The position numbers and the translations under genes were made by a program. Shown here piece after piece: positions 6,814 to 19,595 of a DNA stretch of 64,000 nucleotides. The stretch covers positions 2,928,001-2,992,000 of the forward strand of contig NZ_LN831790.1 in the NCBI RefSeq assembly GCF_001013905.1, written 5' to 3'. Each line of letters opens with the position of its first letter. The stretch's first letter is position 1. The stretch is from Streptomyces leeuwenhoekii. Lineage in GTDB: Bacteria; Actinomycetota; Actinomycetes; Streptomycetales; Streptomycetaceae. Under the pieces are notes generated by a model that worked only from the letters and a program-made list of their open reading frames with translations, had not been told where the DNA came from and searched no databases.

Positions 6814-7138
6814 ATTCCCCCCTCACCCACGCTCATCTGCATATCGCTCGGTGCCGGCGTTCAGTCCAGCACCCTGCTCGCCCTCTCCGCCAACGGCGTC
6901 CTGCCCAAAGCCGATTACGCGATCTTCGCGGACACCGGCTGGGAACCCCAGGCCGTCTACCGGCATCTGGACCGCCTCGAAGAAGAGATCGCCAAGCCCG
7001 CCGACATACCCGTCCTCCGCGTCTCCTCCGGCAATATCCGCCATGACGCTCTCAATCCAGATCACCGGTTCGCCTCGATGCCTCTGTACATCCTGAACCA
7101 GGACGGCCGCCCTGGAATGTCCCGGCGCCAATGCACAG
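6814..7138 (+). pseudogene. PP-loop/PAPS-reductase-like gene, 5' half (split by element A)
   Basis: Reads TLICISLGAGVQSSTLLAL (PP-loop S-x-G-x-x-S-S), then KADYAIFADTGWEPQAVY and PGMSRRQCT, where element A interrupts it. The other half is at 16,530-17,134. Joining at GCACAG keeps the frame (RRQC-TGEYKIK) and gives ~309 residues. PP-loop adenylating enzymes of this type (PAPS reductase, DndC relatives) activate a substrate with ATP, often for sulfur transfer. No ATG, GTG or TTG precedes the PP-loop. The best start is ATT at 6,814, seven bases after AAGGA (6802-6806). The gene is inactivated unless A excises. Confidence 0.75.
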
Positions 7139-7148
7139 TTATCTGCAC
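7133..7148 (+). other. Left end of element A: core GCACAG plus arm TTATCTGCAC
   Basis: The core (7133-7138) recurs exactly at 16524-16529. The arm at 7139-7148, read on the other strand, is GTGCAGATAA, matching the right-end arm GTGCAGAGAA (16514-16523) in 9 of 10 positions. In the circular form these would flank the 6-bp core as inverted arms, the usual tyrosine-recombinase crossover layout. Confidence 0.7.
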
Positions 7149-7203
7149 CAACTCCCCTCGTTGATCGACGTGATGGCCAGTGCGATCGAGGAGGAGGAAC
7201 ACC

Positions 7204-8400
7204 TTGGAACTGCGGCATGAACTGATCGAGGGGCGGGCCGAGTTGCCCCGAGTGGGGGCTGTTGTCCCCGCTCAGGGCGTCCACCCGCCGTACATCGTCG
7301 TGAACGGGTACGACGACGAGATCGAGGCGGCTACCGCTTACCTGCGGGACCTGGCGCTGAACAACTGCAGTCCGCTGACGGTACGCAGCTACGGGTACGG
7401 CCTGCTCCGGTGGTTCCGGCTGCTGTGGCTGCTGGGCGTCGCTTGGGAGAAGGCGACTGAGGCTGAGGTCGCGGTGCTGGCAGGGTGGCTGCGGACGGCC
7501 TCGAATCCGCAGCGCCAGCGGACACAGGCTGGTGGTGCCGCGCCGGGATCGGTGAACCTGAGGACCGGAAAGCCGACGCTGCGTGCCGGGTATGCGCCCA
7601 GGACGATCAACCACGCGTTGTCAGTGGTCAGCGGCTTCTACGGGTTCCATGCCCATCAGGGCAACGGGCCGGTGGTCAACCCTGTCCCTGTCTCGCCGCA
7701 GCGCCGACGGGCCCTCGCGCACCGGAGCCCGTTGGAGCCGCGGGCAGTCGTGGGTCGGGCTCGGCTTCGGCAGAAGGTCTCCGATCGGCCGCCCCGCTCC
7801 ATTCCCGACCGGCTCTGGGACGAGCTGTTCGATCGCCTGGGCTGCGAGCGCGACCGCGCCCTGCTGGAGTTCTACGTCTCCAGCGGCGCCCGCGCGGTCG
7901 AGCTGCTCGGGGTGGGGGTGGACGACATCGACTGGGCCGGCCAGCGAATCTACGTGATCTCCAAGGGCACCCGGGAAAGGGAAGCAGTGCTGGCCTCGCC
8001 GCAGGCGTTCGTCCGGCTGGCCCGCTACCTCGGCGAAGCAGGCACGCCACCACGGGGCGAGCCGGTCTGGCGAACCCGTCGCGGGAGCAATCGGCCGCTG
8101 TCCTACTGGGCGATGCGCCGGATCATGCAGCGGGCGAATGAGCTGCTGGGAACGAACTGGACCTTGCACGACCTTCGGCATACGGCGGCGTCCCGGATGG
8201 CCAACGGCGGCAAGCTCACCCCGGTCGAGGTCCAGGCAATCATGCGGCACGCCAACATCCAGACCACCAGCCGCTACCTGACCGCGCGGGTGGAGGAGAT
8301 GTTCGACAAGCTCGCCGAGCACTACAGCACTCCCCGCCCTGCGACGAGCTACCCCACCGGGTACGCCGCGGATGACATCAAGGCGGTGTTCGGTGCCTAG
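7204..8400 (+). CDS. tnpA1: Tyrosine recombinase, TnpA-like, of element A
   Basis: Start taken as TTG 7,204 behind AGGAGGAGGAAC; an upstream in-frame ATG at 7,180 overlaps that site. 398 residues. An N-terminal SAM-like core-binding region (AATAYLRDLALNNCSPLTV) precedes the catalytic domain. Visible catalytic residues are Arg in SSGARAVELL (~228), Lys in VISKGTRERE, HDLRH (~321), His in IMRHANIQ and Tyr in SRYLTARV (~356). It would cut and rejoin DNA through a 3'-phosphotyrosine link at the element ends, together with TnpB1. The stop lies 8 bp inside tnpB1. It appears intact even though its partner is interrupted. About the length of Tn554 TnpA. Confidence 0.85.
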   Translation: MELRHELIEGRAELPRVGAVVPAQGVHPPYIVVNGYDDEIEAATAYLRDLALNNCSPLTVRSYGYGLLRWFRLLWLLGVAWEKATEAEVAVLAGWLRTASNPQRQRTQAGGAAPGSVNLRTGKPTLRAGYAPRTINHALSVVSGFYGFHAHQGNGPVVNPVPVSPQRRRALAHRSPLEPRAVVGRARLRQKVSDRPPRSIPDRLWDELFDRLGCERDRALLEFYVSSGARAVELLGVGVDDIDWAGQRIYVISKGTREREAVLASPQAFVRLARYLGEAGTPPRGEPVWRTRRGSNRPLSYWAMRRIMQRANELLGTNWTLHDLRHTAASRMANGGKLTPVEVQAIMRHANIQTTSRYLTARVEEMFDKLAEHYSTPRPATSYPTGYAADDIKAVFGA

Positions 8401-10609
8401 GTCACAGGCCAGCCCGACCACAGGGGTCAGCCGCCGGCACGGGCCCATCGTGGAGGGTCTCACCTTCCCCAGCCGATTCGTGGGCGGCCCGATGAAGCCG
8501 CAGGCTGCGGTCGCGAAGACGCCACCGCGCCCACATGGAGAACTGTCCGGTGCCTCGATCAACCACATCTCCAAGCTGGCCTTCGACGTCTGGGAGGACG
8601 CTTCCACCGTCACGCGGCACCAGCGCGCCCAGGCCACCCGAGGGATTCTTCAGTACCTGTCCACCCACCCGGGCCAGACCTGGCAGGAGCGCTGGGACGT
8701 CAGCCCTCTGGGCAAGGGACTGATCAAGGCGAACAGCCTCGGAGCCCGCAGGACGACCGGCCTCGCGATCACCCCCGGGATCCGCACGCTGTTCTGCCTC
8801 CGCGTTGTCCAGCCCACGATGCTCGCCTTCCGGCAGAACCAGCTCAACAACTTCACGCCCCTGTTCATCTCCGCGCAGAACGACCCGCTACTGATCACCT
8901 TCGAGGAGCACATCGCCGCACAGGACCTGCGGCTCAAGCACCAACGGGAGGCCGTGCTCGACATGTGCACCCTCCTCACCTATCAGGGCGTCGCGCTGGC
9001 CGACGTCACGCCAGCGTCGATCCTTCAGTACGCGCACGACAACCGGCTGGCCCGCTGCCGTCTCCAGCCCGGTCAGCCTGCCTCCAACCGCCTGTTCGGG
9101 CACGGAATGTGGACGGCCCTCATCGCCATGGGCCGGTTCCCGACCTCCACGCCGACGACCATGCGGGCGGCGATGATGCGAGGCCAGCGGACCATCGAGG
9201 AGCTCGTCGACCAGTACGGTGTCCGCGACCAGGCCGTCCGGGGTCTGCTGATCGACTACTTCGGTCGGCGTCGCGCCGATCTCGACTACTCCAGCCTGAA
9301 GCAGCTCGCGCTCCTGCTGGTCAAGCACTTCTGGGTGAAGATCAAACAGCTCAACCCCGATCAGCAGGGCCTTCGGATCGCACCGGACCTCTACACACGC
9401 TGGCGCGAGACGATCCGGCTCAAGGACGACGGCACCCACAGGATGGGCCAGGACGACATCGTCATCTCCGTCCGGAGCTTCTATTACGACCTGCACACCT
9501 GGGCTGCTGACGAACCCGAACGTTGGGCGGCCTGGGTCGCACCGTGTCCCGTCCCGCCCGGTGAATTCCACGGCCTGGGCGTCCGCCGGCGGAAGGGCAC
9601 CGAACGCTCCGCGGACCGCACCCGGCAGCGCCAGCCCCTCTTGCCCATCCTGGTCGAGCACGTCGAGTCCCGCTACGACCAAGGCCGGCTCCTGCTCGAA
9701 CGCGCCGACCAAGCCGCCGACGGCGAGGAGTTCAGCCACGCTGGGACCGCCTACCGCCGGGTGATCAGCGAGTCGGATCGCAAGCTTCTCCGGCACGGCG
9801 ACGCCGTACCCACCCGCGTGCTGAACCTGAACTCCGGCGAACTGGTGAACATCGAGGCAGACGAAGAGGCCGCGTTCTGGGACTGGGCGGCGGTGGAGAC
9901 CTTGCGGCACTCCGGCGTCCGCATCGAGGAGATGTGCGAGCTCACCCACCTCAGCATCCGCCAGTATCAGCGCGCGAACGGCGAAGTCATCGCCCTGCTG
10001 GTCATCGCGCCGTCCAAGACCGACCGCGAGCGCGTCATCCCGATGTCGGCCGAACTGTTCCACGTGATCGCCTCGATCATCCGACGCCACGGCCGGCGGG
10101 GAAAGCCGATCCCCCTGGTCAGTCGCTACGACCCGCACGACAAGGTCTGGAGCGCTCCGATGCCCTTCCTCTTCCAACGCCAGAACGGAGCGATCGGATC
10201 GAAGATCTTCAACCCCGGCACCATCCAGCACATGATCAGCCGACGCTGCGAGGACCTGGCCAAGAACCACCCCGGATTCCGCGGCCTGAAGTTCACCCCG
10301 CACGACTTCCGGAGGATCTTCGCCACCGAGCTGGTCAACAGCGGCCTGCCCATCCACATCGGCGCCGCCTTGCTGGGCCACCTCAGCATCCAGACCACGC
10401 GCGGTTACGTCGCCGTCTTCGACGAGGACGTGATCCGCCACTACCAAGCCCACCTCCACCAGCGGCGCCAGATCCGCCCCGCGGACGAATACCGGGACGC
10501 CACCGAGCAGGAATGGACCGAGTTCGAGGAACACTTCGACCGCCGCAAGGTCGAACTGGGCTCCTGCGGACGCCCCTATGGCACTCCCTGCCAGCACGAA
10601 CACGCCCCG
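8393..10609 (+). pseudogene. tnpB1: TnpB1 tyrosine recombinase, 5' part (split by element B)
   Basis: GTG 8,393 overlaps tnpA1 by 8 bp. The long N-terminal region (~480 residues) is followed by the catalytic domain: Arg in SGVRIEEMCELTH, Lys in APSKTDRERVIP, HDFRRIFATE, LLGHLSIQTT and Tyr in RGYVAVF. Coding similarity stops at PCQHEHA (10,606), where element B enters. The missing tail CIRCPMLHVNP continues at 15,493. Joined, the protein has 819 residues, the same as TnpB2. In the disrupted state the frame stays open far into element B by chance. All catalytic residues precede the break, so residual activity is possible but unproven. Confidence 0.8.
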
Positions 10610-10619
10610 TTGACTGAAC
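10604..10619 (+). other. Left end of element B
   Basis: Core GCCCCG then arm TTGACTGAAC. The arm's complement, GTTCAGTCAA, matches the right arm GTTCAGAGAA at 8 of 10 positions. Confidence 0.6.
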
Positions 10620-10685
10620 GAACCCTAGAGATTGCCCAGTTCAGTGGGCGGATGGAGTCATCGAGCACTACGGTCACCGGTCGTG

Positions 10686-11927
10686 ATGAACGATGCTCCC
10701 CGACGGGATTTGGCGGCCCTGGTGGTTCCCCGGTGGGGTCGGCTGGTGGAGACCGGCGACCGGTACGAGCCCTACCGGCTGATCGATCCCGACGGAGCGG
10801 CCGTCGAGGCGGTCGCCGTCTACTTCCAGGAGTTGCTGGCCGCCGGGAAAGCCCCGTCAACGGTTCGTTCCTACGGGATGGATTTGTTGCGGTGGTGGCG
10901 GTTCCTGCAGGCCGTGGACGTTTCCTGGGACCGGGCGACCCGTCGGGAGGCCCGGGACTTCAGCTGCTGGATCCAAGAGACCGTCAAACACAGGAAGATC
11001 AAGGCACAGGGCCCGCGAGCGGTATGGGGAGCCGGTGCCGCGAACCCGGTGACCGGGAAGCCGTCGACCGGATCCGGATACGCTCCGGCCACCGTCGTGC
11101 ACAGCGAGACGGTCCTGCGCCGGTTCTACGATGTGCACCGCGATGCAGGGACCGGCCCGCTGCTCAACCCGTTCCCGCTGGATCTGTCCCGCCGCTCTGG
11201 GCGGGCTCACGCGCACCACAATCCGATGGACGGATGGAGGCCCGAGCGGGTGGGCCGCTATCGGCCGAGCCTGCCGCGGCGGATCCCGCGCTCGATTCCG
11301 GAAGCATGGTTCAACAAGCTGTTCGCGGCGCTGCCCTCCAACCGCGACCGGGCCTTGGTCGCCTTCTGGATCTCCACCGGGGTGCGGGCCTCGGAACTGA
11401 TCGGCATGCGTCAGCGCGATGTCGACCCCGGCCAGCAGTTGATCAGCGTGGTGCGCAAGGGCTCGCGGGCGGTCCAGCAGGTGCCGGCATCGGCGGACGC
11501 ATTCGTATGGCTGCGCCTCTACCAGCAGGAGGTACAAGGCCAGGTTGCACGAGGCCGCACCCAGCCGGTGTGGTGGACACGGCGAGACCCGATCCGACCC
11601 CTGACCTACCACGGTGCCCACCGGATGTTCGAGCGCGTCAACGCCTCGCTCGGCGCCGACTGGACCCTTCACGACCTGCGGCACAGCGCGGCCGCCCGCA
11701 TGGTGCGCGACCCGAAGCTGACGCTGTCCGACGTGCAGTGGGTGCTCGGACACGCTCACCTGTCCGCCACGGAGGTATATCTAACGCCGCACAAGGACGA
11801 GGTCGTGGCCGGCGTGCTTGCGCACCACGCACGCCAGGCCCGCGAGAACATCCAGCCGGCGCCTCCGCCGCCGGCACCGGGCTACGACCCGGCGTCGCTG
11901 GACGTCCTGTTCGGGCGCTCGTCATGA
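10686..11927 (+). CDS. tnpA2: Tyrosine recombinase, TnpA-like, of element B
   Basis: 413 residues from ATG 10,686; GTG at 10,683 is equally possible and no strong ribosome site is seen. Core-binding region AVYFQELLAAGKAPSTVRSY, then catalytic residues: Arg in STGVRASELIG, Lys in VVRKGSRAVQ, HDLRHSAA, LGHAHLSATEVY. It is clearly homologous to TnpA1 but divergent, so A and B are related, not recent copies. Its ATGA junction with tnpB2 indicates coupled translation. Expected to act with TnpB2 on the element B ends. Confidence 0.85.
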   Translation: MNDAPRRDLAALVVPRWGRLVETGDRYEPYRLIDPDGAAVEAVAVYFQELLAAGKAPSTVRSYGMDLLRWWRFLQAVDVSWDRATRREARDFSCWIQETVKHRKIKAQGPRAVWGAGAANPVTGKPSTGSGYAPATVVHSETVLRRFYDVHRDAGTGPLLNPFPLDLSRRSGRAHAHHNPMDGWRPERVGRYRPSLPRRIPRSIPEAWFNKLFAALPSNRDRALVAFWISTGVRASELIGMRQRDVDPGQQLISVVRKGSRAVQQVPASADAFVWLRLYQQEVQGQVARGRTQPVWWTRRDPIRPLTYHGAHRMFERVNASLGADWTLHDLRHSAAARMVRDPKLTLSDVQWVLGHAHLSATEVYLTPHKDEVVAGVLAHHARQARENIQPAPPPPAPGYDPASLDVLFGRSS

Positions 11928-14383
11928 CGGCCGTCGTCAAGCACGCGACGCGCAAGCCGTTGGAGATCACGAACGCGACCGCAGAGCAGGCCCAGGCGCG
12001 GAACAGCCGGCTGCGGGAGCAGTTCCCGGCCCGGACCGCGGAACGGTGGTGGTCGCAGACCGCGCAGTCGTCTGAGGAGACGCTGCGACGCCTGACGGCG
12101 CCGCCGTTCCTCCCCGCGGCGAACGGCACCCGAGCCGGACGCCGCCGCGGGGTGACCAAGCTCCTGCACTGGCTGTCGAGCCAGCCCGGGGATACGTGGC
12201 AGCAGCGCTGGATGGCCACGGGGGCCGAGGACTTGTGCGGAGCCGCCTGGGTCGAGCTCCCACAGCGGTGGCTGAGCGAGCGTGGGCCCTCACCGTCGCA
12301 TGACCGGGAAGACCTGACCTCCGGGCTGCTCATGCTGATCTGCGGAGACGTCATCCGTCCCGCTCTGCCGTGGATGCTCACCCGCACGCACCGGTATCTC
12401 GCCTCCGTGATGGCCGAAGTCCGAGACCCAGACGGATTCGCGCGCCTGCACCAGCTGGCCGCCGCCGGGCCAGCGAGCTCGCGCAAGGACGCCCAGATCG
12501 CCGCGACGCGGATCGCCACCCTGCTGGCCTGCAAGGGCGGACGGATCGGCGACATCACGGTCGGCGACTGCGTGGAGCTCGTCGATACCCAGCGCCGGGT
12601 GCATGCCCGCGGCGGACAGAAGAAGGTCGACTTCTACCTGCGGCTGCGGGCCATGGGCATCCTCCCCGAGGATGCCCCGGCCACGATTCGTGCCTTCGGT
12701 CTCGCCCTGGGCCAGTTGAGCATCGAAGAGCTGGTGGACCGCTACCGGATCCGGTGCCAACCGGTACGCGATGTGATCGTGGACTATCTGCGCGAGCGCC
12801 AGCCATCGCTGGACTTCGCCAGCCTGGACGCGATCTCGCGCACGCTCGCGGGCCTGTTCTGGGCCCGGGTCGAAGTTCTGGCGCCGGGAATCGACTCACT
12901 GCGGCTGCCCCCGGCGGTGGCTCGCGCCTGGAAGGACGACCTGAAGGTCAAGAAGCGCACCGTCGTGGGTCCCGACGGCCAGAGCGTCGAGGTCTCCAGC
13001 CCGCGACTCAACGCCAAGGACGAACTCATGCGCGTCCGAGCGTTCTACCTCGACATCGCACAATGGGCGGCGGAGGAACCGGCCCGCTGGGGGCCATGGG
13101 CCGTGCTCTGTCCGATCGGCGACGACGAGATCCACAAGGCAAAGGAACGCAAGAGACGCAAAGCCCGGATGGATCAGCGCACCCGCGAGAGGCTGCCCGT
13201 CCTCCCCATCCTGGTCAGCACCACCGACCGGCGGCGCTGTGAAGCCGCCGGCCTGCTCCAGGCCGCGGGAGACACCGAGCCCGGAGAGCTGATCCCCGGC
13301 ACCGGCGGGGCCCTGCGCAGGGCCATCGCCCCGAAAGCAGCAGGCCACCTCACGTGGGCCGAAGAGACCTCCAGCGGGCGCCGACGGAACCTGTCCTATG
13401 AAGAAGAGGAAGCCTTCTGGGCGTTCGCCGCGATCGAGGTCCTGCGCCTGACCGGCGTTCGCAACGAGGAACTCCTGGAACTCACGCACCACAGCGTCAC
13501 CCAGTACCGGCTCCCGGCCACCGGCGAGGTCGTCCCGCTGCTGCAGATCGCTCCGTCCAAGACCGACACCGAGCGACTCCTGTTGGTCAGCCCGGAACTC
13601 GCCGACGTCCTCAGCGCCATCATCAGTCGACTGCGCGGCCCCGGCGGGATGGTTCCGCTGGTGGCCGCCTATGACGTCCGCGAGAAGGTCTGGAACCCGC
13701 CGATGCCGCTGCTGTTCCAGCGCGGCATCGGCTCCGAGTACCGCGCTTTCACACCGACCGCGATCCGCAAATTGCTGATCAATGCGCTGGCCGCGACCGG
13801 GCTGACCAACGCCGAAGGTGAGGCACTGTCCTTCTCTCCCCACGACTTTCGAAGGATCTTCGTCACCGACGCCATCATGAACGGACTGCCCCCGCACATT
13901 GCCCAGGTCATCTGCGGTCACAAGAACATCGACACCACGATCGGATACAAGGCGGTCTACCCTGCCGAGACGATCGAGGCCCACCGAGCGTTCATCGCCC
14001 GCCGACGGGCCTCCCGTCCCGGCGAGGAGTACCGGATCCCGACAGAGGAGGAGTGGGACGCCTTCCTCGCCCACTTCGAGAAGCGGAAGGTGTCCATCGG
14101 CACCTGCGCACGCGCCTTCGGATCCCCCTGCATCCATGAGCACGCTTGTGTCAGATGCTCGCTCCTCCGACCTGACCCGGCCCAACGGGCACGGCTTGCC
14201 GAGATCCGCGACAACTTGATCGCCCGAATCGCCGAAGCCGAGACGGAAGGCTGGCTCGGCGAGGTCGAGGGTCTCCAGGTCAGCCTGGCTGGCGCCGAGG
14301 AGAAGCTCCGCCAGCTCGATCTTGGCCACGGGCAGCATACGGCCGTGGACCTTGGCATCCCCACCATGCGTGGTGATCGATGA
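11924..14383 (+). CDS. tnpB2: Tyrosine recombinase, TnpB-like, of element B
   Basis: 819 residues; the ATG overlaps tnpA2 (ATGA). A long N-terminal extension precedes the C-terminal catalytic domain with Arg in LTGVRNEELLELTH, Lys in APSKTDTERLL, HDFRRIFVTD, ICGHKNIDTT and Tyr in IGYKAVYP. The tail contains a CIHEHACVRC cysteine/histidine cluster followed by a helical, coiled-coil-like region (IRDNLIARIAEAETEGWLGE). Equal in length to reconstructed TnpB1. Only about 50 bp separate its stop from the internal right-end-like repeat at 14,433. A separate TnpC gene is not seen; the coiled-coil tail might partly fill that role (speculative). Confidence 0.85.
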   Translation: MTAVVKHATRKPLEITNATAEQAQARNSRLREQFPARTAERWWSQTAQSSEETLRRLTAPPFLPAANGTRAGRRRGVTKLLHWLSSQPGDTWQQRWMATGAEDLCGAAWVELPQRWLSERGPSPSHDREDLTSGLLMLICGDVIRPALPWMLTRTHRYLASVMAEVRDPDGFARLHQLAAAGPASSRKDAQIAATRIATLLACKGGRIGDITVGDCVELVDTQRRVHARGGQKKVDFYLRLRAMGILPEDAPATIRAFGLALGQLSIEELVDRYRIRCQPVRDVIVDYLRERQPSLDFASLDAISRTLAGLFWARVEVLAPGIDSLRLPPAVARAWKDDLKVKKRTVVGPDGQSVEVSSPRLNAKDELMRVRAFYLDIAQWAAEEPARWGPWAVLCPIGDDEIHKAKERKRRKARMDQRTRERLPVLPILVSTTDRRRCEAAGLLQAAGDTEPGELIPGTGGALRRAIAPKAAGHLTWAEETSSGRRRNLSYEEEEAFWAFAAIEVLRLTGVRNEELLELTHHSVTQYRLPATGEVVPLLQIAPSKTDTERLLLVSPELADVLSAIISRLRGPGGMVPLVAAYDVREKVWNPPMPLLFQRGIGSEYRAFTPTAIRKLLINALAATGLTNAEGEALSFSPHDFRRIFVTDAIMNGLPPHIAQVICGHKNIDTTIGYKAVYPAETIEAHRAFIARRRASRPGEEYRIPTEEEWDAFLAHFEKRKVSIGTCARAFGSPCIHEHACVRCSLLRPDPAQRARLAEIRDNLIARIAEAETEGWLGEVEGLQVSLAGAEEKLRQLDLGHGQHTAVDLGIPTMRGDR

Positions 14384-14432
14384 ACCCACGAAGGTGGGGT
14401 GCCGCATGACCCGCAACCAAGATCGAGAACAG

Positions 14433-14451
14433 GTTCAAAGAAGCGTGCATC
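14433..14451 (+). repeat. Internal right-end-like repeat, copy 1
   Basis: GTTCAAAGAAGCGTGCATC matches 15480-15498 at 17 of 19 positions. It consists of an arm-like 10-mer plus a 6-bp core-like GCGTGC. It lies right after tnpB2 and its last two bases overlap the 3' end of the APH-type gene. It may be the former right end of element B. Confidence 0.6.
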
Positions 14452-15346
14452 AAACGCCCTTCAGAACACGATCAAGTGCCGCCCGGCCTGCAGGTCCCCA
14501 GTGCGGCTTGCCGCCGGGAAGGCCCCGATCTCCGTTCTGCCCCATGAGCATCAGGAAGAGGCTCTTCATAGCGGCCAGCCCGCGGGCGCGCTGGATCGCC
14601 GCCTCATCTGCATGCGCGTACATGTCGAAGAACCGTGAGGCCGTGCCCGCGGGCAGCAGCACCCATGCGGCGGCGAGATCCCACGCTGGATCGCCGGCGA
14701 ACATGTCACCGAAGTCGACGATGCCCGAGAGCGTTCCGTCCGAGACGACGACGTTCGCGGGATGGAGGTCGCCGTGGACCCACACTCGCGGGCCCTCCCA
14801 CGCGTGGGCCGCAACGGCGTCGTCCCAGACGGCCCGGACGTCGGCAGCGATGTCGTCGAGGGCAACGGCCTGGAAGAAGTTCTCGAAGCCGTCCGTGCAG
14901 TTCTTGGGATGGGCACCGCGGTCCGTAGAGATCGGCGCCTCGGCGGGCGCCTCCACATGGAGCGCCCGGAGGAAACCCGCCAGCGTGTCGGCCGCGTGGT
15001 TGCCGCGGCTGATCGAGCCGTGGTCCAGCGGCTCGCCGGGAACCCACGTCATCACGGTCCAGTGCTTGGGGAAGCGCTCGGACGGTTCGCCGAACCGCAC
15101 TGGGGTCGGCACCGGGAGCGGCAGGCGTGGGGCCAGCACGGGGAGCCACCGCCGTTCCTTGAGTTGGAGCTCCGGGGTGGGGTCCATGCGCTGCATGCGC
15201 ACGACCAACTCGTCCCCGAGACGCCACATCTGGTTGCCCCACCCGCCCGCCACCTCACGGATGGCCAGCCCGGCAAGGTCTGGATGTTGCTCCTGCAGCA
15301 GGTCGCGGACCAGGTCTGCGGTGATCTCGATCTCGGTGTCGGTCAT
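14450..15346 (-). CDS. Aminoglycoside phosphotransferase-family kinase
   Basis: 298 residues. The C-terminal lobe holds the APH Brenner motif HGDLHPANVVV and the metal-binding IVDFGDMFAGDPAWDLA; the N-lobe has a Gly-rich GGWGNQMWRLGDELVVR. The family uses ATP to phosphorylate small hydroxylated molecules such as aminoglycosides, macrolides or other metabolites. The substrate cannot be read from sequence, so a resistance role is only possible. It is the sole cargo of element B, opposite in strand to the recombinases and bracketed by the 19-bp direct repeats. No promoter was identified upstream of 15,346. Confidence 0.8.
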   Translation of the reverse strand: MTDTEIEITADLVRDLLQEQHPDLAGLAIREVAGGWGNQMWRLGDELVVRMQRMDPTPELQLKERRWLPVLAPRLPLPVPTPVRFGEPSERFPKHWTVMTWVPGEPLDHGSISRGNHAADTLAGFLRALHVEAPAEAPISTDRGAHPKNCTDGFENFFQAVALDDIAADVRAVWDDAVAAHAWEGPRVWVHGDLHPANVVVSDGTLSGIVDFGDMFAGDPAWDLAAAWVLLPAGTASRFFDMYAHADEAAIQRARGLAAMKSLFLMLMGQNGDRGLPGGKPHWGPAGRAALDRVLKGV

Positions 15347-15479
15347 GCGAAGTCACAGTACTGAGGCGGCAGACGGAGCGGGCTCTCGCTCTCCGGAACA
15401 TCTCGCTGTGATCCCTCGGGCATCACCAATTCGGTTTCAGAGAGCTACAGATCAGAGGCTTTGGACAGACCGGCCCCAA

Positions 15480-15498
15480 GTTCAGAGAAGCCTGCATC
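15480..15498 (+). repeat. Right end of element B (repeat copy 2)
   Basis: GTTCAGAGAAGCCTGCATC: arm (15480-15489), core GCCTGC (15490-15495), then tnpB1 coding sequence. Two further TCAGAG copies lie just upstream (near 15,437 and 15,453) and might be accessory binding repeats. Confidence 0.65.
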
Positions 15499-15738
15499 CG
15501 CTGCCCGATGCTCCACGTCAACCCCAAGATGCTGCCCCGCCTCACAGAGCTGGAAGCCGACCTGCTCGACCGTCGGACACGGGCCGAAGCCGAGGGCTGG
15601 GTCGGTGAGGTCGAAGGCATCGACCTCACCCTCACCTTCCTTCGCGCGAAGCGAGACGAGGCCCAGCGCCGGTCACAGCGCCCAGCGGTTGACTTGGGCA
15701 TGCCGCGTCCGAGGACAGCGACAGGGCGTCAGACCTGA
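15490..15738 (+). pseudogene. tnpB1: TnpB1, 3' remainder
   Basis: ACIRCPMLHVNPKMLPRL, then a charged helical stretch (EAEGWVGEVEGIDLTL) ending at TGA 15,736. It aligns by eye with the end of TnpB2 (ACVRCSLLRPDPAQRARL ... EGWLGEVEGLQVSL). It has no start of its own and is the severed tail of tnpB1. Its stop overlaps the 3' end of the convergent methyltransferase by 10 bp. Confidence 0.8.
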
Positions 15739-16382
15739 GCGATCAGCGCGTAGCGGATGTCATCCACCGGTCGGCCCCACAGGTCTGGGGCGTCGCTGAG
15801 ATCTTCCACTCTCATCGACGCCACGAGCGGTTCAACCGCAGCGGCAAGGTCGGCGGGAAGCACTCCGCCGTTCCATGGCAGCGTTTCGGCGCCCGTGACA
15901 TACGGCTCCCCAGACTGCCCTGCCTCCCCCCAGCGCCCTTCGACAAGGAGCAGAGTGCCTCCCGGGCGAAGCCGGGCCACCCACTCACGCAGCGCGTCCT
16001 CAGGAGCCGGGAGGGTCCACAGGAGATGCCGAGCAAGCACCAGATCGAACTGCTCGTCGCCCGTGGGAGGCATAGCGGCGTCCCCGACGACAAAGCGCCC
16101 CGGGAGACCAGCGGTTGACAGCTTTGCCTGAGCCCGCTCAACCATCCTCGCGGACAGGTCGACCCCGGTCACCCGGTGGCCGGCCGCAGCAAGTAGCGCC
16201 GAAAGCGAGCCTGTGCCGCAGCCGATATCCAGGACATCAGCCGGGCCAGGCGGCGCCCACCGCCGCAGCAGCTCGTCCCACGCACGGTGGGTGTGTTCCG
16301 CCCGCAGACCGTGATCCGGCTCTTCGTCGAACGACGGAGCTGCGGCGTCCCAGTAATCGGCAACCTCAGAGGCGTTGATCAT
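15729..16382 (-). CDS. Class I SAM-dependent methyltransferase (217 aa)
   Basis: Starts at ATG 16,382 with a GAGG nine bases upstream; longer in-frame starts lack homology-like sequence. It contains motif I VLDIGCGTGSLSALLAAAG, the acidic loop GVDLS and motif LRPGGTLLLVEG, as in UbiE/Methyltransf_11 small-molecule methyltransferases. The substrate is unknown. It is the cargo gene of element A, on the reverse strand between the end of tnpB1 and the right end, the same position the APH-type gene holds in element B. Confidence 0.75.
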   Translation of the reverse strand: MINASEVADYWDAAAPSFDEEPDHGLRAEHTHRAWDELLRRWAPPGPADVLDIGCGTGSLSALLAAAGHRVTGVDLSARMVERAQAKLSTAGLPGRFVVGDAAMPPTGDEQFDLVLARHLLWTLPAPEDALREWVARLRPGGTLLLVEGRWGEAGQSGEPYVTGAETLPWNGGVLPADLAAAVEPLVASMRVEDLSDAPDLWGRPVDDIRYALIAQV

Positions 16383-16513
16383 GCCTCGCATCCTCGCAGC
16401 ACCCACTGACAGCACCGCGTGCCAGCCAGTCCCCTCAACCACGCCGAACGAGCCAAAGCGCGACAAGACAGGAGAAGGCCATCGATATAACCGCAGCCAT
16501 CCATACGGGTGAA

Positions 16514-16529
16514 GTGCAGAGAAGCACAG
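16514..16529 (+). other. Right end of element A
   Basis: Arm GTGCAGAGAA (16514-16523) plus core GCACAG (16524-16529), directly joined to the 3' half of the PP-loop gene. The arm differs from the element B right arm by one base. Confidence 0.7.
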
Positions 16530-17134
16530 GCGAATATAAAATAAAGCCGATCAAGAAGAAAGTCCGGGATCTCCTCGGTTATCCCTATCCGACGCGCATC
16601 CCGAAGGATGTCTTCGTCGAGCAGTGGGTCGGCATCTCCACGGACGAGTTCCACCGCGCCAAGGACGCCGACGTCCGATACATGCGCAACCGCCACCCGC
16701 TCATCGACCTGAACTGGTCACGCGACAACTGCATCCGCTACCTCACGTCCCTGGGGCTAGCCGATACCCCGAAGTCCAGCTGCCTCGGATGCCCCTTTCA
16801 CGGAAACGCGCAGTGGCGGCACATCCGTGATACCAGCCCGGATGAGTGGCAGGACGTCATGGAATTCGACGCTGCCATCCGGAAGGGAAATGCCCGCGCG
16901 AACGCGAGCGGGAACCGCCTGCTGGGGCAGGCGTTTTTGCACCGGTCCCGGGTTCCGCTCAGCGAAGCGCCCATCGATCACGTCACCGCCGCCGAATGGG
17001 CTGCCCGACAACAGCAACTCGGCGGTCACGCCCCAGTGGTGGAGGAACTGGAGAACGGGGTCGTCGACGGCTGTTCCCCCTGGGCTTGCCGCGGCGCCGA
17101 GCCAGTGCAGGACGACTTCGGGCTGGCCTCGTGA
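16530..17134 (+). pseudogene. PP-loop/PAPS-reductase-like gene, 3' half
   Basis: Continues the protein as GEYKIKPIKKKVRDLLGYPY, IDLNWSRDNCIRYLTSLGL, a C-x-x-C element (SSCLGCPFHGNAQWRHI) and EWQDVMEFDAAIRK. This C-terminal cysteine pair is typical of DndC/PAPS-reductase relatives found in phages and plasmids. A GTGA overlap joins it to the cytosine methyltransferase, so before insertion the two were probably translated together. Confidence 0.75.
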
Positions 17135-18414
17135 GACGGATCATCCTCGACCTGTTCGCCGGCCCCGGCGGCTGGAGCCACGCCCTGACCCTCTTGGGGG
17201 CCCGTGACATCGGCCTGGAGTGGGACGCCTGGGCCTGCAAAACCCGGGCCCGCGCGGGCCAGTTGACCATCCAGACGGACGTCGCCCGCTATCCGGCATG
17301 GATCTTCTCCGGCCGCGTCCTCGGGCTGATCGCCTCTCCTCCCTGTCAGGCGTGGTCGATGGCCGGCAAGCGCCTCGGCCTGGTCGACCAGCCGCTCGTC
17401 CACCAGGCCGTGGCCGACCTCGCCGCCGGCCGTGACACCCGCGAGCGGTTGCTCGCCGTGTGCGCCGACCCGCGCTCCCTGCTGGCCGCCGAGCCCATGC
17501 GCTACCTGCACGCCCTCAACCAGACCGGCGAGCCGGAGTGGGTCGCCATGGAGGAGGTCCCCGACGTGCTGCCGCTGTGGAAGCAGTACGCCGTGATCCT
17601 GCGGGGCTGGGGTTTCTCGGTGTGGACCGGGATCCTGAACGCGGCCGACTTCGGTGTGCCGCAGACCAGGCGGCGGGCGATCCTGCTCGCCTCCCGGGTC
17701 CGTACCGCACAGCCTCCCGCGCCGACGCACGCCCGCGTCGCAGAGCCGGAAAGCCTGTTCGGGCCGGGCCGCAAGCAGTGGGTGTCGATGGCCGAGGCCC
17801 TGGGCTGGGGCCGGACCGACGGCCCGGTGCCGACCGTGTGCGCCGGCGGCGGGCCGGGAGGCGGCCCCGAGCCCTTCCCCTCCGGCTCCCGAAAGACACT
17901 GTCCGACGCCCGCGACCGCGGCACCTGGACCCCGCGGCCGGACGGCCTCGTCCTGCGTTCCCGCCGGGAAGGAACCGGGTGGGCCGCCCGGCGCGGCGAC
18001 AACCGGACCGCCGGCTCCCCAGCGCCCACGTTCACCGCGGAGGCGCACCGCTGGTCCTGGTCCCTGCGCAGCAACAACCAGGCCAACGCCACCGTGCGAC
18101 GGGCAGACGAGCCGGCCGGGACGCTGTTCTTCGGGCACCGCGCGAACGAATGCACCTGGGTCGCCGAACCCATCGCCCCCAGCCCGCCGGACGCCTCCGA
18201 AGGGCAGTCCTCGGCGTTGCCTGAGCCGATCCGCATCACCGCCGGTGAGGCGGGCATCCTGCAGTCCTTCCCGGCCGACTACCCCTGGCAGGGCAACAAG
18301 GGCCAGCAGTTCTCCCAGATCGGCAACGCCGTCCCGCCCCGGCTGGCCGCCCACCTCCTGGCTCCGCACCTGAAGGTTCCCTTCAGCCCCGACGACTTCG
18401 CCCTGGCCGCTTGA
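17131..18414 (+). CDS. DNA (cytosine-5) methyltransferase
   Basis: 427 residues from GTG 17,131. Ordered C5-MTase motifs: I (LDLFAGPGGWSHAL), IV (ASPPCQAWS with catalytic Cys), VI-like (MEEVPDV instead of ENV), VIII (QTRRRAILLAS) and X (QIGNAVPPRLAAHLL). It transfers methyl from SAM to C5 of cytosine in a specific DNA sequence. The target domain lies between VIII and IX and the specificity is unknown. There is no adjacent restriction endonuclease, so it fits a solitary, anti-restriction methylase of a mobile element. It is translationally linked to the split PP-loop gene and to the next gene. Confidence 0.9.
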   Translation: MRRIILDLFAGPGGWSHALTLLGARDIGLEWDAWACKTRARAGQLTIQTDVARYPAWIFSGRVLGLIASPPCQAWSMAGKRLGLVDQPLVHQAVADLAAGRDTRERLLAVCADPRSLLAAEPMRYLHALNQTGEPEWVAMEEVPDVLPLWKQYAVILRGWGFSVWTGILNAADFGVPQTRRRAILLASRVRTAQPPAPTHARVAEPESLFGPGRKQWVSMAEALGWGRTDGPVPTVCAGGGPGGGPEPFPSGSRKTLSDARDRGTWTPRPDGLVLRSRREGTGWAARRGDNRTAGSPAPTFTAEAHRWSWSLRSNNQANATVRRADEPAGTLFFGHRANECTWVAEPIAPSPPDASEGQSSALPEPIRITAGEAGILQSFPADYPWQGNKGQQFSQIGNAVPPRLAAHLLAPHLKVPFSPDDFALAA

Positions 18415-19595
18415 TGCCCCACGCCCCGCACCCCGACGAGGACAGTCTCCTCACCGTCACGCCGTGGCCGCCGGTGTACTACGCCGAGCAGGCCCTGCTC
18501 GGCGCTCTGCTGTCCGATCCGCAGCGCCTGGCGGAAGTGTCCGGGATCGGCCCGGAGGCGTTCTCCACCGCCGCGCACGCCGCGGTGTTCGCCGCGATCC
18601 GTAGCCTGCCCGCGCCCGGTCCTGCCGAGGCCGGCGATCACGCCGCCGCGCTGGCCGCGCTGCGCACCAAGACCGCCCCTGCCCCGGTCGAGCGCACCGA
18701 GCACATCGCCTGGCTCGACAGGGTGCTCGCCGCCGCCCGGGAGCGGGCGCGCGGTCTGACCACGGCCCACCTGCACGGATTCATCAGTGCCTGCCCCGAT
18801 CCCCGGCACGCTCCTGCCTACGCGCGGATCGTCGAGGCCGAACACGCCCGGCGCCGCCTGCACACGGCCGCCCGGCACCTGATGCACACGGCACGGGACA
18901 CCTCCCTCCCCCACCCCGTGCCGAGCGCCCTGGCGGCGGCCGACGCCCTCGCGTCCGTCGTGGACGACGTCGCCGCGGCCTGCCCTCCGCACTCCGGGTC
19001 CCTGCCCCGCACCCCCGCACCGCCACCGGCGCCCCCGCACGACGGCGAAGAGGCCGCCCAGGAGGAACGGCTGCTGCTCGCCACGGCGACCGCGCGCCCG
19101 GCCGACATCGAGAAGATGCGCTGGCTGACCGCCCAGGACTTCACCCGTCCCCTGCACGCCGGGCTCTGGCAGTGCCTGACCGCGCTGGTGCGCCGACACG
19201 CGCCCGTCGATCCCGTGACCGTTCTGTGGCAGGCCCAGCAGCGCGGCGTCCTGAGCAGAACCGACGACCCGAAAGAGCTGCTGGGCTTCCTCGCCGAGCC
19301 GGACGTGTCCGCACCCTGCCTGGGCGAGCGGATCCTGCACCGGGCCGTCCTCACCACCGCCCACCACACCGGCCGCCGCATCGAGGCGTTCACCGACGAT
19401 CCGGCCAACACCCCCCACCAGCTCATCGTCGGCAGCCGCCGCGCCCTCGCCGACCTGACCGCCCTGCGCACCCGCTGGTACCAGGCCACCACACCCCAAC
19501 CAGCCGCCCGGTCCGCGCGCCGCACCGCCAACGCGGCACCCCGCGCCTGCCCCCAGCCCACAACGTCCCCGCCCTTCAGCCGCATCACACGCTGA
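18414..19595 (+). CDS. Protein with two DnaB-helicase N-terminal-like domains, no ATPase
   Basis: 393 residues; the ATG overlaps the methylase stop by 1 bp. The first domain (YYAEQALLGALLSDPQRLAE, FSTAAHAAVFAAIRSL) and the second (EERLLLATATARPADIE, FTRPLHAGLWQCLTALV) both resemble the helical DnaB N-terminal domain. No Walker A/B follows. Such proteins occur in Streptomyces plasmids; a role in contacting primase or helicase during element replication is plausible but unproven. The tail QLIVGSRRALADLTALRTRW is echoed in a relic at 21,401. Confidence 0.65.
   Translation: MPHAPHPDEDSLLTVTPWPPVYYAEQALLGALLSDPQRLAEVSGIGPEAFSTAAHAAVFAAIRSLPAPGPAEAGDHAAALAALRTKTAPAPVERTEHIAWLDRVLAAARERARGLTTAHLHGFISACPDPRHAPAYARIVEAEHARRRLHTAARHLMHTARDTSLPHPVPSALAAADALASVVDDVAAACPPHSGSLPRTPAPPPAPPHDGEEAAQEERLLLATATARPADIEKMRWLTAQDFTRPLHAGLWQCLTALVRRHAPVDPVTVLWQAQQRGVLSRTDDPKELLGFLAEPDVSAPCLGERILHRAVLTTAHHTGRRIEAFTDDPANTPHQLIVGSRRALADLTALRTRWYQATTPQPAARSARRTANAAPRACPQPTTSPPFSRITR

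Follow-up and report, generated by a model that had tools for sequence, protein, structure and literature searches.

Nested Tn554-related transposons in Streptomyces leeuwenhoekii and a sub-clade that appears to use its relatives' recombinase gene as an attachment site

Structure of the interrupted locus

In the window analysed here, a 64,000-nt stretch of Streptomyces leeuwenhoekii contig NZ_LN831790.1, a PP-loop gene is split into halves lying 9,391 bp apart by an insert we term E1 (7134–16524; Table 1). E1 contains a tyrosine recombinase gene (tnpA1), the gene of a long tyrosine recombinase (tnpB1), a methyltransferase gene and a nested element, E2 (10605–15490), which lies within tnpB1 between its His-Ala and Cys codons and has its own tnpA2, tnpB2 and APH-fold gene. 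A first-pass annotation of the locus had listed tyrosine recombinases and the methyltransferase; to these are added the APH-fold gene and a full count of the recombinases, which form two pairs with tnpB1 cut in two. Directly 3′ of the PP-loop gene are genes for a C5 cytosine methyltransferase and a protein with a DnaB-N domain (17131–19595).

Table 1 Features of the interrupted PP-loop gene and of elements E1 and E2 (window positions).
Feature	Position	Strand	Basis
PP-loop gene, left half	6814–7133	+	Frame joining; joint-spanning homologues
E1 left spacer, CACA	7134–7137	+	Travels with the element; layout in relatives, twin copies
E1 left end, GTTATCTGCAC	7138–7148	+	Left end present in 20/20 relatives
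tnpA1, tyrosine recombinase, 398 aa, catalytic motifs present	7204–8400	+	Phage_integrase E = 1.6e-21
tnpB1 first part, long tyrosine recombinase, cut at His-Ala^Cys	8492–10604	+	Continuity in relatives
E2 left spacer, CCCC	10605–10608	+	CCCC in 18/20 E2-type rows
E2 left end, GTTGACTGAAC	10609–10619	+	Comparison with relatives
tnpA2, tyrosine recombinase, 416 aa	10677–11927	+	Phage_integrase E = 1.3e-17
tnpB2, long tyrosine recombinase, 819 aa, intact, has HEHACVRC	11924–14383	+	Phage_integrase E = 8.5e-10
Internal right-end-like sequence, GTTCAAAGAAG, then GCATC-type target letters	14433–14443	+	Possible older-nesting scar; same junction in L099
E2 cargo, APH-fold phosphotransferase family protein	14450–15346	-	PF01636 E = 9.2e-39
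E2 right end, GTTCAGAGAAG	15480–15490	+	Comparison with relatives
tnpB1 last part (CIRCPML...), split off by E2	15491–15738	+	Continuity in relatives; flank match
E1 cargo, class I methyltransferase	15729–16466	-	PF08241 E = 4.1e-25
E1 right end, GTGCAGAGAAG	16514–16524	+	Right end present in 16/20 relatives
PP-loop gene, right half	16525–17134	+	Frame joining; matches in same-genus genomes; joint-spanning homologues

The sequence GCACAG occurs at 7133–7138 and 16524–16529, and deletion of one copy with the interior joins the halves, as the annotation had stated, into an open frame of 309 codons reading RRQC/TGEYKIK. It had looked to homologues spanning the joint for confirmation. The joined halves found a one-piece match across the joint, at 79–85% identity and with RRQCTGEYKI at the joint, in all nine homologous loci checked (L106–L114); these nine compare with a right-half match in 41 of 199 same-genus genomes, the present genome counted. 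E1 is thereby confirmed as an element that inserted as a unit, with borders definable to the base and an empty site backed by intact homologues, and comparison with relatives moves the proposed borders to 7134 and 16524. Assignment of the host gene as PAPS-reductase/DndC-like is tentative: an intact homologue matched PAPS_reduct at E = 0.003 and 18 bits against a cut-off of 22.5, and profile searches with the halves alone gave no match.

The annotation had also placed a second element inside the first, and this nested insertion in tnpB1 is real. All 20 fetched relatives of E1 have a tnpB that is continuous over the position of E2, and the tail of tnpB1 resumes at 15491, just after E2. Without E2, E1 measures ~4.5 kb, similar to the 4.7 kb of relatives L033, L035, L038 and L040, and an intact TnpB homologue of E1 type, in L033, has 774 aa. 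TnpB1 would be inactive without its last ~82 codons. Because E2 sits inside E1 and cuts tnpB1, E1 probably cannot move on its own as long as E2 is present. E2 itself looks intact, its exit could restore tnpB1, and catalytic motifs are kept in TnpA1, TnpA2 and TnpB2.

Profile searches of the recombinases matched generic recombinase models only in Pfam and NCBIfam, in the latter under the cut-offs, and integrase families in PHROGs; two loci came from a scan of viral contigs, one being a reasonable relative (58%). Every NCBIfam model fell under its cut-off for the APH-fold protein of E2.

Element ends and the carried spacer

E1 and E2 share a layout consisting of a host G, a carried left spacer, roughly inverted terminal arms, tnpA-tnpB, cargo, an AGAAG right end and then host sequence. 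Relatives of E1 have the left end GTT(A/G)(A/T)CTGCAC (20/20) and a right end finishing in GTGCAGAGAA(G/C) (16/20), and relatives of E2 share both of its ends. The host G stands ahead of the spacer in all 17 rows of E1 relatives and in all 20 rows of the E2-type comparison. Family-wide, a spacer of 4–5 nt is found at the left end only; the four letters ahead of the left end are not target-derived, being CCCC in nearly all E2-type rows and CACA or other letters in E1 types. Two copies in one genome (L066 and L067 in G079) occupy different sites and are identical over 5,919 bp with 0 mismatches. Their identity continues for 5 nt outside the left motif and for 0 nt outside the right end, which establishes both termini and a spacer that moves with the element. 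The twins suggest recent movement in this element class.

The GCACAG repeat, which the first-pass annotation had used to define the borders, was considered as a target duplication and rejected: most relatives have left-spacer letters unlike those of the host, and the spacer is moved as part of the element. Since the twin copies show a carried spacer, the repeat in the window is left spacer plus adjacent letters that match the target letters by chance.

Target choice in the E2 lineage

A TnpA tree of 89 rows places E2 within a 17-row sub-clade (support 100/98) of a 25-row clade (100/97). Adding L085, which is frameshifted and was placed by 94% identity, gives a sub-clade of 18 copies. The wider E2 lineage is counted as 38 copies, comprising the clade of 25, L085 and 12 further plasmid copies outside the tree that are 70.7–71.0% identical to TnpA2, most sharing the pBD2 TnpA protein accession; L101, L171 and L179 (TnpA broken or partial) and L093 (outside the clade) were left out of this count.

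Seventeen of the 18 sub-clade copies are inserted at HEHA^C of tnpB, L130 being the exception. Across the lineage, 21 copies lie at HEHA^C (18 by left flank, L116 by right flank, and plasmid copies L195 and L197 by left flank), two in other long recombinase genes and 15 elsewhere. Both flanks match tnpB in 14 E2 relatives; the right flank of L129 has no tnpB match, and the host gene of L086 is frameshifted. Left flanks show 10 insertions in sense and 10 in antisense orientation to the host tnpB, and best matches of the host genes in the 18 left-flank cases are spread over five different reference TnpBs. Of the two remaining recombinase insertions, both in other genes for long tyrosine recombinases, L199 immediately precedes a Cys codon and L127 lacks its right side at a contig end. 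Target labels cluster on the tree, with 6 changes against a shuffled mean of 20.7 (0 of 500 shuffles as low). The recurrence of one tnpB codon in 17 of 18 copies, over several tnpB lineages and in both orientations, implies that the sub-clade uses its relatives' recombinase gene as an attachment site. In L117 an identical tnpB tail flanks both sides of a 4.8-kb contig, either a real inversion or an assembly artefact. Self-immunity of E2 through a TGC-to-TGT change in its own site was rejected by eye, as TGT hosts (L070, L124) are also hit.

The 15 lineage copies in no recombinase gene are L130, L196 and 13 Rhodococcus plasmid copies, the last with near-identical TnpA and at ~3 sites as judged on the last 36 flank letters. 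None of the 12 additional plasmid copies is in tnpB, and in the plasmid set taken alone insertions in tnpB or another recombinase gene account for 3 of 7 sites (3 of 17 copies). L197 has L198 (pBD2) as its nearest row, yet only L197 is in tnpB, indicating that target choice can change fast.

Target sites across the wider family

Relatives of E1 are inserted in UDG, NUDIX, PTS EIIC, CobW and other gene families, and T2SSE genes are also among the targets in relatives. Pfam searches of 115 left flanks in the first-choice frame returned Phage_integrase seven times, Tn3 transposase six times, T2SSE and rve three times each, and other transposase models singly; 110 second-choice frames gave fewer matches. 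Matches to tnpB were found in 22 of 129 left flanks: the 18 E2 relatives at HEHA^C, L093, which occupies a HEHAC site too while belonging to a different branch, and L146, L147 and L148, where tnpB is hit elsewhere, at residues ~553–555. For some sub-lineages these data show a tendency towards fixed sequences, often in coding motifs.

Insertions of other family branches often lie in genes for transposases (Tn3, rve, Mutator and others), CpaF-like ATPases, Ku or DNA ligase, and the left flank of L092 looks by eye like the 3′ terminus of a tRNA gene. About 8 kb left of the window lies L053 (G000:C3 2908001–2928000), a third tnpA/tnpB element of this class, which has left and right ends of its own and recombinases that share 54% identity with TnpA2 and 49% with TnpB2.

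Alternative explanations and proposed mechanism

The presence of E2 in tnpB1 could be a chance hit on mobile DNA with no target rule behind it. Insertions into mobile genes are common, the Pfam tally places further branches of the family in transposase genes too, and the lineage copies in no recombinase gene point the same way; the single codon position occupied almost throughout the sub-clade, over several host lineages and in both orientations, already contradicts such a reading, which we consider very improbable. Inheritance of one old composite, in place of repeated insertion, would account for some near copies and for the APH-fold gene shared by E2, L115 and L116, whereas the five reference TnpBs matched by the host genes and the even split of left-flank orientations argue against it and make it unlikely.

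Other readings concern the nature of the elements. A precedent for programmed excision is the nifD element of cyanobacteria, and the frame that opens after clean removal of E1 would suit a comparable switch of the PP-loop gene. Relatives of E1 in other target genes, the uninterrupted state of all nine PP-loop homologues checked and the cut in E1's own tnpB1 speak against this; regulated excision finds no support, and we give the idea hardly any credence. The cut tnpB1 could also mark E1 and E2 as dead remnants whose matching ends are coincidental, which is scarcely probable given that the ends recur in relatives, that a relative has identical twin copies and that three recombinases keep their catalytic motifs.

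We consider it very likely that E1 and E2 are actinobacterial Tn554-related transposons, and that the E2 sub-clade targets His-Ala-Cys DNA of related tnpB genes and can stack. Under the proposed mechanism, TnpA and TnpB would join both element ends and recombine them with the target after a G, and target choice would follow TnpA. E1 would have landed in the PP-loop gene; members of the E2 sub-clade would target His-Ala-Cys DNA near the end of tnpB in their kin, thereby cutting TnpB and making stacking possible. The support is comparative, coming from aligned sequences in which layout, carried spacer, target position and nesting can be seen.

Stacking, repair and cargo exchange

Series of tnpB tails are what stacks predict, and they are found as expected. 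L171, which has its left end in tnpB though it is outside the lineage count, has three junctions in series between a right end and a tnpB tail. L116 has two such junctions and then, where the contig stops, a right end; L115 has one, then another tail following a degenerate end, and finally a right end. In L197 the tnpB tail adjoins the left end, and annotated pieces of an SOS-response-associated peptidase lie on both sides of the stretch. Because right ends precede orphan tnpB tails behind a complete tnpB, repair of tnpB by recombination with the guest and carrying-off of cargo are suggested. The TnpB of L087 is 70% identical over residues 514–815 and 44% over 30–505, a chimeric pattern considered as a sign of such repair, though a normal conservation profile could also produce it. 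Overall, we favour, with some reservation, a picture in which the sub-clade attaches to His-Ala-Cys-coding DNA of its own family's recombinase gene in either orientation and in several TnpB lineages, inactivates its kin and forms recursive nests, with broken tnpB repaired from the guest copy and host cargo carried off via shared right ends.

The right-end-like sequence behind tnpB2 (14433–14443) is a possible scar of older nesting, and in L099 the same junction adjoins an APH-fold gene 96.6% identical to that of E2. It was considered as proof of cargo capture and does not provide it, no tnpB tail having been matched behind it. APH-fold cargo 95–97% identical to that of E2 occurs in L099, L115 and L116, each with a stacked or scarred tnpB. 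Within L171 (3334–8001), 4.7 kb of other DNA splits a tnpA2-like gene near residue 145.

Relation to known elements

The annotation had presented the element type as little described, although the class has been known since Van Houdt et al. 2012 (PMC3414803). The sections of that paper covered here describe actinobacterial Tn554-related pairs (Famint36/41) of one long (611–828 aa) and one normal or short (~350 aa) recombinase without TnpC. Likewise, no TnpC partner was identified for E1 and E2, which have adjacent short and long recombinases on the same strand (TnpA2 416 aa with TnpB2 819 aa; TnpA1 398 aa with the 774-aa TnpB of L033), and a TnpA of plasmid pBD2, for which that paper lists such a pair, is 71% identical to TnpA2. 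Section 10 of the same paper, on the actinobacterial class, is silent on ends, spacer, target genes and kin targeting. Downstream of tnpB, only the opposite-strand APH-fold and methyltransferase genes were identified, and no TnpC gene is among the genes identified in E1 and E2 by general gene content as opposed to a TnpC-specific model.

The Tn554-like label of the first-pass annotation holds for the dual recombinases and fails for TnpC and for the target. Tn554 has tnpC and inserts at att554, in radC, whereas the targets here are a PP-loop gene and tnpB, and in relatives UDG, NUDIX, T2SSE and other genes. As described in PMC10214605, Tn554 likewise has a TnpA/TnpB pair with one long member and carries flank letters without target duplication, as do E1 and E2 by the twin copies and by spacers that differ from host letters; here the carried letters are at the tnpA-side end.

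SE elements, in the part of their literature covered, resemble E1 and E2 in pairing a normal with a large recombinase, in being target-specific and in carrying a short flank along. A strand-biased circle, with no empty site, is a further SE trait. They differ in their four core genes (intA, tfp, intB and srap, in Gammaproteobacteria), against two recombinase genes in each of E1 and E2; one insertion in an IS3 gene is mentioned there, and no mention of a kin-targeting lineage was found in that part. RIT elements, in the sections of PMC3414803 covered, are tyrosine-recombinase elements too, some in the transposase gene of a Tn6049-related transposon; they have three adjacent tyrosine recombinases where E1 and E2 have two each, and their composites are near-identical and at one genomic location. 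E1 and E2 are not Tn554 proper, SE or RIT elements. IS4321/IS5075 and Tn502/Tn512 have other transposase types, and their sites are ends or res sites, not a coding motif in a same-family recombinase. According to the part of PMC11187229 covered, these elements, the former in Tn21 ends and the latter as 'res site hunters', likewise prefer another mobile element as target.

In the open-access literature, which lacks most subscription journals, we found no report of kin targeted at a coding motif, and as far as that search shows the target choice of the E2 sub-clade is new. It was absent from the first-pass annotation, whose reading is otherwise partly supported.

Significance

Elements that prey on mobile elements are known. 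A recombinase lineage whose main site lies in a codon of its own family's recombinase would test ideas on transposon competition, on how stacked elements gain cargo, and on how tyrosine recombinases shift target, as in L197 versus L198, which have nearly the same TnpA and different targets. For a class known only by its proteins, defined ends and a spacer provide an anatomy that is checkable in any genome.
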